NCBI RefSeq assembly: GCF_006335115.1
Contig: NZ_VDMJ01000044.1
Span: 85,863 to 149,862 of the forward strand
Reading direction: 5' to 3'
DNA length: 64,000 bases
Source: Streptomyces sp. NP160
GTDB lineage: Bacteria; Actinomycetota; Actinomycetes; Actinomycetales; Quadrisphaeraceae
Shown: piece by piece, positions 27,260 through 30,208 of the stretch
How the letters are laid out: each line of letters opens with the position of its first letter
How positions within the stretch are numbered: position 1 is the stretch's first letter
Notes under the pieces: generated by a model
Databases searched by the model: none
Seen by the model: only the letters and a program-made list of their open reading frames with translations
What the model was told of the DNA's origin: nothing
Translations under genes and position numbers: made by a program

Positions 27260-28570
27260 TCACGTGTACCAGCTGGGCTCGGGCACCTCGTCGAGCAGCA
27301 CGTAGCCGCCCACCTCGCGCTTCTTGTACGGCAGCGGGTCGTGCAGGCTGTGCGTGCGCAGGTTGCGCCAGTGGACGTCGAGCCCCACGGCGTTGGCGCT
27401 GGCCCGGGCGCCGGTGAGCTCGTACACCTTGGTCGCCACCTCGAGCCCGTCGTCGACGGCGCGGACCTTCGCCGCCGCGATGCGGACCGCCAGCTCGCCG
27501 CGGCGGCGCTCGGTGAGCTCCTCGCGCGGGGCGTGCAGCACCGCGCTGGCCTCAGCTCCCACGGCGTCGAGGAGGGCCTCGTCGGCCCACAGCTTCGAGG
27601 CCAGCTCGCCGTACCCCTCCAGCACGTACCACTCCTGCGTGGCGGACTCCTTGTCGTCACCGCCGTACGGCCAGGCGCGCGTCGTCGTCCTGGTGTACTC
27701 CGCGGCCCGCTCCAGCGCGCCCTGGGCGATGCCCAGGTAGAAGTTGGCGAAGACGACCTGGATGGTCGGCACGTTGAGGGTGTTGTACGTCAGCGGCTGG
27801 AACACCCTGTCGACGAAGCCCGCCGCGGCCGCCCACGGCACCCGCACGCCGTCGATGCGCACCGAGCCGCTCTCGGTGAGCCGCTGCCCGAGGTTGTCCC
27901 AGTCGTCGTGGAAGACGATGCCCGGCTGGTCGGTCGGCACGATGGCGAAGACGTGGGTGTCGGTGCCGTCGAGGACGCCCTCCAGCACGGTGAGGTCGGA
28001 GACGACACCGCCGGTGGAGAAGGACTTGCGCCCGGAGAAGACCAGCTCGTCGCCGTCCTCGGTGATGACGAGGTCCCCGTCGCGGGGGTTGACGGCCCCG
28101 CCGAAGAACAGCTCGCCGGAGGTGTAGAGCTCCTCGACGGCAGCGACCTGCTCCTCCGTGCCGACCAGGCGCGCTGCCCACGCCCACAGGTAGTGGTAGC
28201 CGAGCAGCTGGCCGACCGACCCGTCCCCGCGGGCCACGGTGCGCACCACGCGCAGCGCGGTCTCCCACGTCTGGGCGGCGCCGCCGTGCTCGCTGGGGCC
28301 CAACAGGGTGACCAGGCCGGAGGCCTTGAGGAGGTCGACCTCCTCGCGGGGGTGTCCGCCGGCGCGGTCGCGCTCGACGGCGCCGCGGCGCAGCTGGGCG
28401 GCGACGTCCTCGGCGCGGCGCAGCCAGCCCGCGGTGTCGGTGGGACGGGGTGCGGTGCGCCAGTGCTCGGTGCCCGCGAGCAGGTGGCCCACGGCCGGAC
28501 GGCCGCTGCGGACCGGACGCGCGCTGGTCGTGGTGGTGGAGGTGGTCGTGGCGTCGTCGAGGAGGGTCAT
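27260..28570 (-). CDS. Acyl-CoA dehydrogenase-fold flavin monooxygenase (DszC/SfnB-like), sulfur acquisition
   Basis: 436 residues, ACAD fold throughout, closest in feel to DszC/SfnB sulfur-acquisition monooxygenases: central GRKSFSTGGVVSDLTVLEG, and the C-terminal RNLRTHSLHDPLPYKKREVG typical of that group. Such enzymes use reduced flavin and O2 to attack organosulfur or related compounds. The ATG at 28570 has GGAG 5 nt upstream. The N-terminus carries a Thr/Ser-rich run. A 29-residue leader peptide with the actinobacterial cysteine-type signature lies 78 nt upstream, supporting control by sulfur supply. The substrate is unknown. Confidence 0.82.
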   Translation of the reverse strand: MTLLDDATTTSTTTTSARPVRSGRPAVGHLLAGTEHWRTAPRPTDTAGWLRRAEDVAAQLRRGAVERDRAGGHPREEVDLLKASGLVTLLGPSEHGGAAQTWETALRVVRTVARGDGSVGQLLGYHYLWAWAARLVGTEEQVAAVEELYTSGELFFGGAVNPRDGDLVITEDGDELVFSGRKSFSTGGVVSDLTVLEGVLDGTDTHVFAIVPTDQPGIVFHDDWDNLGQRLTESGSVRIDGVRVPWAAAAGFVDRVFQPLTYNTLNVPTIQVVFANFYLGIAQGALERAAEYTRTTTRAWPYGGDDKESATQEWYVLEGYGELASKLWADEALLDAVGAEASAVLHAPREELTERRRGELAVRIAAAKVRAVDDGLEVATKVYELTGARASANAVGLDVHWRNLRTHSLHDPLPYKKREVGGYVLLDEVPEPSWYT

Positions 28571-28648
28571 CGGGTGCTCCAGAGGTCGTCGGGGCGCGGC
28601 GGGACGCCGACGCCGGTCGTGGTCGAGGAGGGAGGGGCGGGTGGGTCG

Positions 28649-28738
28649 TCAGGCGCGACAGCGCGTGGACGACGTCCGGCCCAGGTCGACGACGAGCCTG
28701 CGGGTGAGGACCTCGGACGTGCGGTGAGGAAGGCTCAT
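28649..28738 (-). CDS. Cysteine-type leader peptide (29 residues)
   Basis: A small ORF: ATG at 28738 preceded by AGGAG at 5-6 nt. It begins MSLPHRTSEVL, continues TRRLVVDLGRTSST and ends RCRA. The V-D-L-G-R-T-S-S core and a Cys near the end match the actinobacterial putative leader peptides found before sulfur and cysteine genes. Translation stalling at the late Cys codon would sense low cysteinyl-tRNA and relieve attenuation of the monooxygenase 78 nt downstream. The 78-nt gap is GC-rich and can fold. The mechanism is inferred. Confidence 0.8.
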   Translation of the reverse strand: MSLPHRTSEVLTRRLVVDLGRTSSTRCRA

Positions 28739-28746
28739 GGGGAGCT

Positions 28747-28784
28747 CCTGTCTCGTCCCCCGCGGGGGACCTCGCGCTGACAGG
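28747..28784 (-). other. Nested stem-loop just upstream of the leader peptide
   Basis: The inner 16-bp palindrome GTCCCCCGCGGGGGAC (28755-28770) is enclosed by CCTGTC (28747-28752) and GACAGG (28779-28784). It ends at the leader-peptide Shine-Dalgarno. It does not match a riboswitch I know. The rest of 28785-28918 shows nothing clear. Confidence 0.5.
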
Positions 28785-28918
28785 ATCGCGGCTGCGTCCT
28801 GCCCGGTCCTCACCTGGAGCACCCCGCCGCGGAGGGGGGTTGCTGGACAGCGAGCCAGGGCTTGTCGCTGCCACTCATGACCGACGTCGACGACCGTAGG
28901 GAAGACCGGCCATACGGG

Positions 28919-30118
28919 TCAACCCCTCGTCGCGGTGCTGCGCCGGCGCAGCAGCAGGACCGCGAGCGCCGCCGCGGCCAGGGCTCCCGCGAGCCCGGCC
29001 AGCGCCAGGACCGCCACGCGCAGGCCGGCCGCGTCGGCGAGGGCGCCGACGCCCACCACGGGCACGGAGATGGCCACGTAGAACACCACGAACAGGGTGG
29101 AGACCACCTCGGCGCGCCGCTGCGGGGGTGACGCGGCGCCGACCTCGGCCACCCCGGCCCGGAAGCAGGCGCCCTGGGCGCCGCCCAGCACCACCGTGGC
29201 GAGCAGCAGCAGCGGCAGCGAGACCAGCTCCAGGCTCGCGGCGAGGAGCGCCGTGCCGACGAGCAGCGCGACGCACCCCGCGGGCAGCACCCGGGCCGGC
29301 GCGAGGCGCGCGGTGGCCGCCTGGCCGCCCACCGACGCGGCGAAGATGAGCGCCGCCACGGCCCCGGCGGCGAGAGGGGCGCCGATGCCGAGGAGCTGGC
29401 CGAGCACCCGCGGTTCCGCCGCCGAGTACAGGCCCAGGCAGGCGAACCCGGCGAACCCGCTGACGGCGGCGGGCAGGAACGCCGCCCGCGCCTGGGAGGG
29501 CACGGCGGGTCGCAGCGGGCGCCACGGCGGACGCTGCTCGACCGGGCCCGCCACGGTCTCCCCGGCGACGGCGAGGGCACCCGCGGCGAGCACCAGCAGC
29601 GCGAGGTGCAGGGCGTAGGGCAGCACCAGCGGCGCCCAGCCCAGCTGCGCGACGACCCCCGCCAGCAGCGGGCCGGACCCGAGCCCGCCGATGTTGGCGG
29701 CGGTGGCCACGAGCGAGGCGGCGCGCGCCGAGCCCTGCGGCGCCAGCTCGGAGACCAGCGCGGTGGCCGCCCCGGTGAACAGGCCGGCGGAGATCCCGGA
29801 CAGCACCCGCCCGGTCAGCAGCCCCGGCACGGAGGCGGGCAGGAGGAAGACGACGGCGGACGCGGCGGCGAAGCCCAGGCCCACGGCCAGCACGGGGCGC
29901 CGGCCGAACCTGTCGCTCGCCTGACCGGCCACGACGAGCGCCGCGATGACGCCGACGGCGTAGGCGGCGAAGACGGTGGTCTGCAGCAGCGCCGACAGGC
30001 CGAGGCGCTGCGTGTACAGGCCGTACAGCGGCGTCGGCAGCGTGGTGCCCAGCATGGTGGCCCAGAACGCGAAGGCCGCTGCGGCGAGCCGCCACCGCCA
30101 GGCGTGCTCGTGCGACAC
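28919..30118 (-). CDS. MFS transporter (drug-efflux type)
   Basis: A 399-residue major facilitator with about 12 hydrophobic segments. Motif A between TM2 and TM3 reads GQASDRFGRRPVLAVGLG; TM1 holds the TTLPTPLYGLY of the MFS sugar/drug-transporter group. Probably a proton-driven exporter; the substrate is unknown. The start is the GTG at 30118 with GGGAGGT upstream. It lies 180 nt upstream of the leader peptide on the same strand, with no clear operon link. Confidence 0.87.
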   Translation of the reverse strand: MSHEHAWRWRLAAAAFAFWATMLGTTLPTPLYGLYTQRLGLSALLQTTVFAAYAVGVIAALVVAGQASDRFGRRPVLAVGLGFAAASAVVFLLPASVPGLLTGRVLSGISAGLFTGAATALVSELAPQGSARAASLVATAANIGGLGSGPLLAGVVAQLGWAPLVLPYALHLALLVLAAGALAVAGETVAGPVEQRPPWRPLRPAVPSQARAAFLPAAVSGFAGFACLGLYSAAEPRVLGQLLGIGAPLAAGAVAALIFAASVGGQAATARLAPARVLPAGCVALLVGTALLAASLELVSLPLLLLATVVLGGAQGACFRAGVAEVGAASPPQRRAEVVSTLFVVFYVAISVPVVGVGALADAAGLRVAVLALAGLAGALAAAALAVLLLRRRSTATRG

Positions 30119-30170
30119 GTGACCTCCCGCGCTCGACCGACGCCCGGGTGTGCTGGTGCGCCCGGACAGC

Positions 30171-30208
30171 ACGAAGGCCGCCGATCCAGGAGGATCGACG
30201 GCCTTCGT
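30171..30208 (-). terminator. Terminator after tRNA-fMet
   Basis: ACGAAGGCCG (30171-30180) pairs with CGGCCTTCGT (30199-30208), with inner GATCC/GGATC pairing. It sits 6 nt past the tRNA 3' end on the minus strand. Confidence 0.75.

Follow-up and report, generated by a model that had tools for sequence, protein, structure and literature searches.

Short upstream open reading frames (uORFs) with Cys codons precede sulfur genes in mycobacteria, where they form polycysteine leaders (PMC13236596, PMC9031893; accessible parts of both articles). In alphaproteobacteria, the cysS uORF motif uORFC-8-2 is a case of Cys-codon attenuation with two tandem Cys codons, UGC being dominant, and a terminator with a U-run (PMC8632094, accessible part). 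Leader peptides of this general kind have also been annotated in NCBIfam as NF042934 (cis_reg_atten), which has the C-terminal core RRHVDLxRxxSAxCR, and as the Cys-rich leader peptides NF042936 (Ms4527A) and NF042933 (Ms5788A); the one-line descriptions of the three entries name neither SAM-IV nor a codon. SAM-IV riboswitches (RF00634) stand before actinobacterial sulfur genes. Control of a gene by a riboswitch through an upstream ORF is known for ppe2 of Mycobacterium tuberculosis, where a B12 riboswitch relays to the gene via translation of the uORF uPPE2, with termination-reinitiation at an AUGA overlap; amino acid sensing by the uORF is not mentioned in the accessible part of that report (PMC11260477). 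Tandem riboswitches integrate two ligand inputs in one leader with combined logic, and the accessible text of a review on them contains none of the terms "leader peptide", "uORF" and "attenuat" (PMC9481103).

The locus described here lies in a stretch of 64,000 nt (the window) of a genome of 4.77 Mb, and in it a single leader combines a SAM riboswitch with a Cys leader peptide (Table 1). As in other SAM-IV cases, a full-length aptamer above the gathering score precedes an actinobacterial sulfur gene, but the aptamer is followed first by the ORF of a Cys leader peptide and not by the structural gene. In contrast to the polycysteine leaders, there is a single key Cys codon in a conserved core, the ORF is led by a Shine-Dalgarno sequence (SD) instead of being leaderless, and a riboswitch is located in front. 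In contrast to uORFC-8-2, there is one UGU codon and no visible U-tract. As with ppe2, an actinobacterial riboswitch would act through an upstream ORF, but the predicted ligand is SAM, and 78 nt separate the stop codon of the leader from the start codon of the gene. As with tandem riboswitches, two ligand inputs would be combined, but the second sensor would be a translated peptide. In several actinobacterial families the combination is found again in front of sulfur-related genes, and both SAM and Cys are formed in sulfur assimilation. No description of the tandem of SAM-IV and Cys leader, or of the UGU codon rule reported below, appeared among the papers listed in the literature searches, as judged by titles, abstract openings and selected passages; an earlier publication may exist.

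Table 1. Features of the monooxygenase locus in the window, in 5' to 3' order of the transcript.
Feature	Position	Strand	Remarks
Promoter-like boxes	28893..28922	-	TTGACC 28922-28917, 18 nt, TACGGT 28898-28893; read from the sequence
SAM-IV riboswitch aptamer (RF00634)	28769..28882	-	cmscan, model positions 1-116
Hairpin GUCCCCCGCGGGGGAC	28755..28770	-	between aptamer and leader SD; the stem-loop of the sequence-only reading
Leader SD AGGAG	28745..28749	-	identical in three orthologues
Leader peptide ORF MSLPHRTSEVLTRRLVVDLGRTSSTRCRA	28649..28738	-	29 codons; ATG 28738-28736, TGA 28651-28649
Presumed regulatory Cys codon TGT	28658..28660	-	codon rule over 73 leaders
Spacer, C-rich and G-poor, rut-like	28571..28648	-	after leader stop; includes gene SD GGAG 28580-28577
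Flavin-dependent sulfur monooxygenase, DszC/SfnB/MsuC kind, 436 aa	27260..28570	-	family scores and PDB match

It is probable, though well short of certain, that the region is a composite two-input OFF switch of a sulfur-scavenging monooxygenase, in which SAM-IV would gate the Cys-sensing leader and the leader would gate the gene. The transcript probably starts just before the riboswitch. When SAM is plentiful, the bound aptamer would hinder initiation at the leader, and when it is scarce, the leader would be translated. With Cys available, the ribosome would finish the leader and leave, the rut-like stretch would be exposed, and transcription would stop there, probably by the action of Rho. 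With Cys scarce, the ribosome would pause on UGU, assisted by its conserved nascent chain RR-HVDL-R--S; the waiting ribosome would cover the C-rich stretch, and the gene would be expressed. In the simplest logic, the gene would be expressed only if SAM and Cys are scarce at the same time. The sequence comparisons establish the two elements with their order and spacing, their recurrence in several families, the codon rule and the base composition of the spacer, whereas the ligand responses, the relay from SAM-IV through the leader, the stalling and the role of Rho are predictions. Both boxes of the candidate promoter, which were recognized by eye, were found to be identical in an alignment of three orthologous Quadrisphaera regions. 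An MFS-type transporter gene (28919-30172) is encoded on the same strand; 36 nt separate its end from the aptamer, and the promoter-like -35 box overlaps that end.

The riboswitch was identified with cmscan at 95.1 bits (gathering score 38, E 5e-16) over its full length, and a search of the genome carrying the window gave E 8.8e-18. By its covariance score the RNA is a member of RF00634, and SAM binding is predicted for it. That genome has nine SAM-IV sites, three of which are followed by a leader of the type described here (L009, L012, L015). A common mode of SD sequestration was not found: pairing between the 3' part of the aptamer and the SD was analysed over 136 SAM-IV sites, and 16 of 200 permutations were equally good, so that no sequestration platform could be recognized. 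At the window site, UCCUGUC in the last aptamer hairpin could pair with GACAGGA at the leader SD; this pairing, a lead found by eye, is common to only three near-identical orthologues.

An earlier sequence-only reading had proposed that a 29-codon ORF with its own SD stands 78 nt before the monooxygenase gene, and the coordinates, the motif statistics and the gap-free reading frame bear this out. A strict motif, [VI]D[LAIV]x[RS]xx[AS]xxC[RG] within 300 nt downstream of SAM-IV, was present behind 9 of 163 SAM-IV sites in 54 genomes. It was absent from all 163 reverse strands and from 20 versions of these regions shuffled in dinucleotide blocks, and the one match in a control strand of 491 kb was the L015 site, seen again from a neighbouring locus; the motif was written after some of the sites had been seen, and these numbers are thus a specificity control and not an independent prediction. 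The sites were most, not all, of the matches listed in a sample of genomes of the order and the phylum, and 163 of 164 loci were used, L272 having no aptamer match by sequence profile. A leader profile was then built from nine leaders, all of them from tandem sites. It matched the window peptide, which the profile contains, with E 1.9e-12, and it had matches in 32 of 99 genomes of the order. The survey of the order, together with the 17 best matches of another leader-profile search, yielded 81 leader loci; the two sets overlap, and the loci are not independent of one another.

In the orthologues the leader reading frame contains no gap, but the following spacer varies in length (78 versus 125 nt). 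In comparison with the orthologue in genome G008, codons 12-29 are clearly constrained (dN 0.12, dS 0.37, no gap), whereas the whole ORF showed weak constraint (dN 0.18, dS 0.30), and the N-terminal half is therefore only loosely kept. In all 73 leaders retained for codon analysis, R, D and C were at fixed places, C being part of the search pattern. The window leader has the core RR-VDL-R--S--CR in a short ORF upstream of a sulfur gene, and by this core it is assigned to the "putative leader peptide" family NF042934, although the window peptide itself stayed below the cut-off of 27 bits. This cut-off was exceeded by the leader of L009, behind another SAM-IV of the same genome (33.3 bits, trimmed), and by a tandem leader in G074 (28.0), but not by the orthologous leader in G008, which is of the Q. 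granulorum type (19.6). It is very improbable that the ORF is incidental and that SAM-IV alone regulates the gene. The window peptide had no NCBIfam match at E up to 10, its N-terminal half varies freely and translation of the ORF is predicted only, all of which would suit an incidental ORF; the motif statistics, the constraint on codons 12-29, the invariant residues and the codon rule argue against it. A Cys-type leader before a sulfur-acquisition gene, with Cys sensing as a prediction, is well supported. The leader can serve as a simple marker for the annotation of sulfur genes, and ORF callers easily miss such peptides.

The codon usage of the leaders was analysed at the key Cys, which is located exactly seven residues after V-D-L. 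From the 81 loci, two with an identical 51-nt sequence (L279, L289) and six without the exact core were removed, leaving 73 leaders. The key Cys was encoded by TGT in 71 of them, the two exceptions with TGC being L351 and L385; L384, which lies inside a long ORF and is probably false, is included in this number, and without it the count is 70 of 72. The other Cys codons in the same 73 peptides were TGC in 46 cases and TGT in one case out of 47, and TGT was also rare in ordinary genes (5 of 105 Cys codons in the window, 85 of 824 at the loci). For the difference between the key Cys and the other Cys within the peptides, Fisher p was 1.4e-29, a value that overstates the case because the sites are related by descent; the internal control with other Cys codons of the same peptides is less dependent on shared descent. 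The rule held in leaders with SAM-IV (12 of 12) and without it (59 of 61). It also held in three genomes of one genus outside the order, where the key codon was TGT in 19 of 19 leaders and the other Cys codons were TGC ten times and TGT five times. For this set 22 of 24 loci were used, as two lacked the core, and three identical sequences were dropped; a looser spacing yielded 20 TGT and 2 TGC, because the first of two adjacent Cys was taken in L411 and L407.

Elsewhere in the core the synonymous codons vary. Ser at position -3 is encoded by AGC (36), TCC (11) or TCG (6), and five different codons are used for Arg at -13, a residue found in 73 of 73 leaders. As the core codons vary while the residues stay, and the codon of the key Cys is nearly fixed, the leader is, on the evidence of these alignments, kept as a peptide and the key Cys is kept as a codon. 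The profile and the motif act on amino acids and cannot have created the codon rule, and the key Cys codon is judged to be under codon-specific selection. Bacterial tRNA-Cys has the anticodon GCA, which reads UGU by wobble and, as a rule, more slowly than UGC. A UGU codon could therefore be the first to feel a shortage of charged tRNA. Selection at the level of RNA pairing or structure is an unlikely alternative reading of the same rule. It would fit with the CG that follows the key codon in 55 of 73 leaders and with the fact that U is the only base that sets TGT apart from TGC, but TGT persists when the next codon encodes Pro, Ser, Gln, Ala or Cys, and no pairing partner for the key codon was apparent by eye. 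Read as a decoding signal, the codon rule turns an annotated, little-explained peptide family into a precise decoding hypothesis, which can be tested by one synonymous change.

The tandem arrangement was not restricted to the window. At 13 of the 81 leader loci, in families f1, f5, f14, f17 and f18, the leader was located behind a SAM-IV aptamer, a share that is biased upward by the tandem-only seeds of the profile; at the other 68 no SAM-IV was detected upstream by sequence profile, two of these (L327, L377) having less than 190 nt of upstream sequence. The genes behind the 13 tandems were the monooxygenase described here (three), a family-5 solute-binding protein (three, one checked with Pfam and two by likeness), an ABC permease, a carbonic-anhydrase-like protein, an NlpA lipoprotein, an SsuE-type FMN reductase (190.5 bits, above the cut-off of 164) and a partial CysD, which scored 363.5 bits against 195 for NF003587 and stayed below the cut-offs of two other CysD models; two genes were cut by a contig end. 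The carbonic-anhydrase-like gene (L015/L295, contig C79 of the genome carrying the window) reads in two frames and looks either broken or affected by an assembly error. In five Quadrisphaera genomes (L280, L281, L289, L290, L282) the leader, without SAM-IV, is located before the gene of a PF00375 symporter (one Pfam-checked), for which a role in cystine uptake is a guess. In the same genus it was found before genes that, by reading, resemble a sulfurtransferase (L285) and PLP enzymes of Cys/Met metabolism, and in another family before genes whose first residues resemble sulfite reductase, cysteine synthase and rhodanese. Near L285 there is a divergent SAM-IV.

At the 13 tandem sites the in-frame start of the leader is 16-38 nt from the end of the aptamer (31 nt in the window), and 12 of them have an SD-like sequence. 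For comparison, a first ORF preceded by an SD could be placed at 136 of the 163 SAM-IV sites, and at the 125 other SAM-IV sites the first long ORF of this kind began at a median distance of 55 nt, the starts being rough. In the genome carrying the window, the distance from the aptamer to the tandem gene is about 200 nt or more. These distances put the riboswitch in a position to act on the leader, which in turn could act on the gene. It has to be considered that SAM-IV, acting on transcription or stability, and the leader might work independently, without any relay. Each element does occur alone, as the strict motif was found at only 9 of the 163 SAM-IV sites and most leaders had no SAM-IV by profile, but the position of the leader start right behind the aptamer, with the gene much farther away, makes independent action rather improbable, and a relay through the leader is the favoured reading.

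Directly upstream of the leader, a stem-loop had been noted in the sequence-only reading. It is present, abuts the 3' end of the aptamer and, folded alone, has -10.9 kcal/mol, a value reached by 4 of 200 shuffles; in a longer fold of 102 nt, however, the minimum-energy structure pairs its bases otherwise in the window and in G009, and only G008 keeps the hairpin. When short stretches were folded, a stem of 5-6 bp was kept in the three orthologous regions (GUCCC/GGGAC in G009, GACCCC/GGGGUC in G008), with one swap from U-A to A-U among the orthologues, which in three sequences is no proof of a conserved stem. The folds also predict partial pairing of the leader SD, within a hairpin (GCUC/GAGC) that surrounds the AUG. 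The hairpin GUCCCCCGCGGGGGAC was considered as the terminator of an attenuator and was rejected, because it is located directly behind the aptamer, lacks a U-tract and precedes the leader.

The region between leader and gene is distinguished by its composition. In the first 60 nt after the leader stop the fractions of C and G were 0.51 and 0.28, and the mean C-G skew was 0.29 and positive at 71 of 71 leader loci (71 of the 73 leaders were used). The control values were 0.04 after 158 ordinary stop codons (positive in 53%) and 0.05 in front of 151 gene starts, the ordinary genes having been found by a simple GC-frame rule. Rho loads on C-rich, G-poor stretches. The C-over-G stretch expected behind the leader for a Rho-dependent attenuator is present, although C-richness is no proof of Rho. 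From 28571 to 28651 no U-tract is visible, and the fold is no better than those of shuffled sequences; a conserved attenuator hairpin between leader and gene was not found in the three orthologues, and the spacers of G009 and G008 show no conservation. Rho has likewise been suspected for terminator-less cys leaders of mycobacteria, in what the accessible part of the article calls a weak prediction (PMC1262725).

Alternatively, the stalled ribosome might free the SD of the gene instead of blocking Rho, with SAM-IV as the upper input. Such translation attenuation has been described for cysteine genes of M. smegmatis (PMC13236596, accessible part, citing Canestrari 2020), and the gene SD GGAG is predicted to be mostly paired in the window and partly paired in two orthologues. 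It seems doubtful for this locus nevertheless, since sequence and length of the spacer differ between the orthologues, the spacer folds no better than shuffles, and the common feature seen over the 71 loci is the excess of C over G, the composition on which the proposed action of Rho is based. Tentatively, and with clearly less confidence than is placed in the two-input switch as such, the element may be seen as a natural NOR element. In it, the riboswitch would control translation of a Cys-sensing, arrest-like peptide, which would sense via one position-specific wobble UGU about ten residues behind an invariant Asp, by a rule kept across actinobacterial families.

The gene had been called DszC-like, which is a loose term: the product scored 256.3 bits with the DszC model NF043015 (cut-off 850) and 245.1 bits with the SfnB model TIGR04022 (cut-off 430.9). 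The best PDB match was methanesulfinate monooxygenase 6u76 (E 1.7e-70), and Pfam revealed acyl-CoA dehydrogenase domains, of which the middle one narrowly missed its cut-off. The earlier proposal of a Cys-type leader on a sulfur-acquisition gene is strengthened by the likeness to 6u76, by the CysD- and SsuE-type targets and by the codon-specific selection, but it captured only half of the element, as the SAM-IV in front had been overlooked.

The conservation of the regulator at this gene was analysed in six Quadrisphaera genomes and in 80 relatives of the monooxygenase in named genomes. SAM-IV and leader are kept in 3 of 3 Quadrisphaera genomes with a monooxygenase of more than 90% identity across 415 or more of the 436 residues, i.e., the genome carrying the window, G008 and G009; the two same-genus proteins are 91 and 92% identical to that of the window, and the protein of Quadrisphaera granulorum is 86% identical. 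On these identities the window is taken to come from a Quadrisphaera species, a putative assignment. G010 has a match of 115 residues at 79%, where no leader was found, and in G011 and G012 no match exceeds about 50%. Among the 80 relatives, Q. granulorum (L017), whose leader region is identical to that of G008, is alone in having SAM-IV and leader. In Arthrobacter sp. H14 (L062) a SAM-IV is located before a flavin-reductase-like gene that precedes the monooxygenase gene, and no such leader was seen. The remaining 78 had neither peptide nor riboswitch at the thresholds used, two of the 80 having less than 900 nt of upstream sequence; a loose motif pattern gave chance matches without the VDL--CR core in L033, L034, L038, L042, L044, L046, L055 and L056. 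The sequence-only reading had named, as an outcome that would refute it, relatives with the gene but without the peptide, and such relatives were seen outside the genus. As the relatives outside the genus lack the whole regulator, the result limits the reach of the claim and does not refute it in Quadrisphaera. As far as these searches reach, the regulator at this gene is confined to this genus.

Several other short ORFs were observed behind SAM-IV aptamers. A Cys-containing ORF ending with CRWRRA is located behind SAM-IV and before metN-like ABC genes in five Quadrisphaera genomes (L014, L177, L179, L135, L182); the copy in the genome carrying the window (L014, contig C13) has TGT as its Cys codon. 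Two further families have Cys-rich short ORFs behind SAM-IV that end with MAACMCTCECRR (L254, G075) and MCGMPMACLCMR (L222, G084), and polycysteine leaders may therefore also pair with SAM-IV. Another short ORF, VRTDPRTTT(V/M)RCRH(A/S)R, follows directly behind SAM-IV in G011 (L141) and G012 (L146). In the genome carrying the window, a second acyl-CoA-dehydrogenase-like gene (L016, contig C110) is located directly behind SAM-IV, without a leader of the type described here, and its SD GAGGAG looks, by eye, complementary to CUCCUCCUC just behind the aptamer. Lastly, pairs of SAM-IV aptamers were found close together on opposite strands in G008 (L122/L185, contig C23) and G009 (L133/L183, contig C11).
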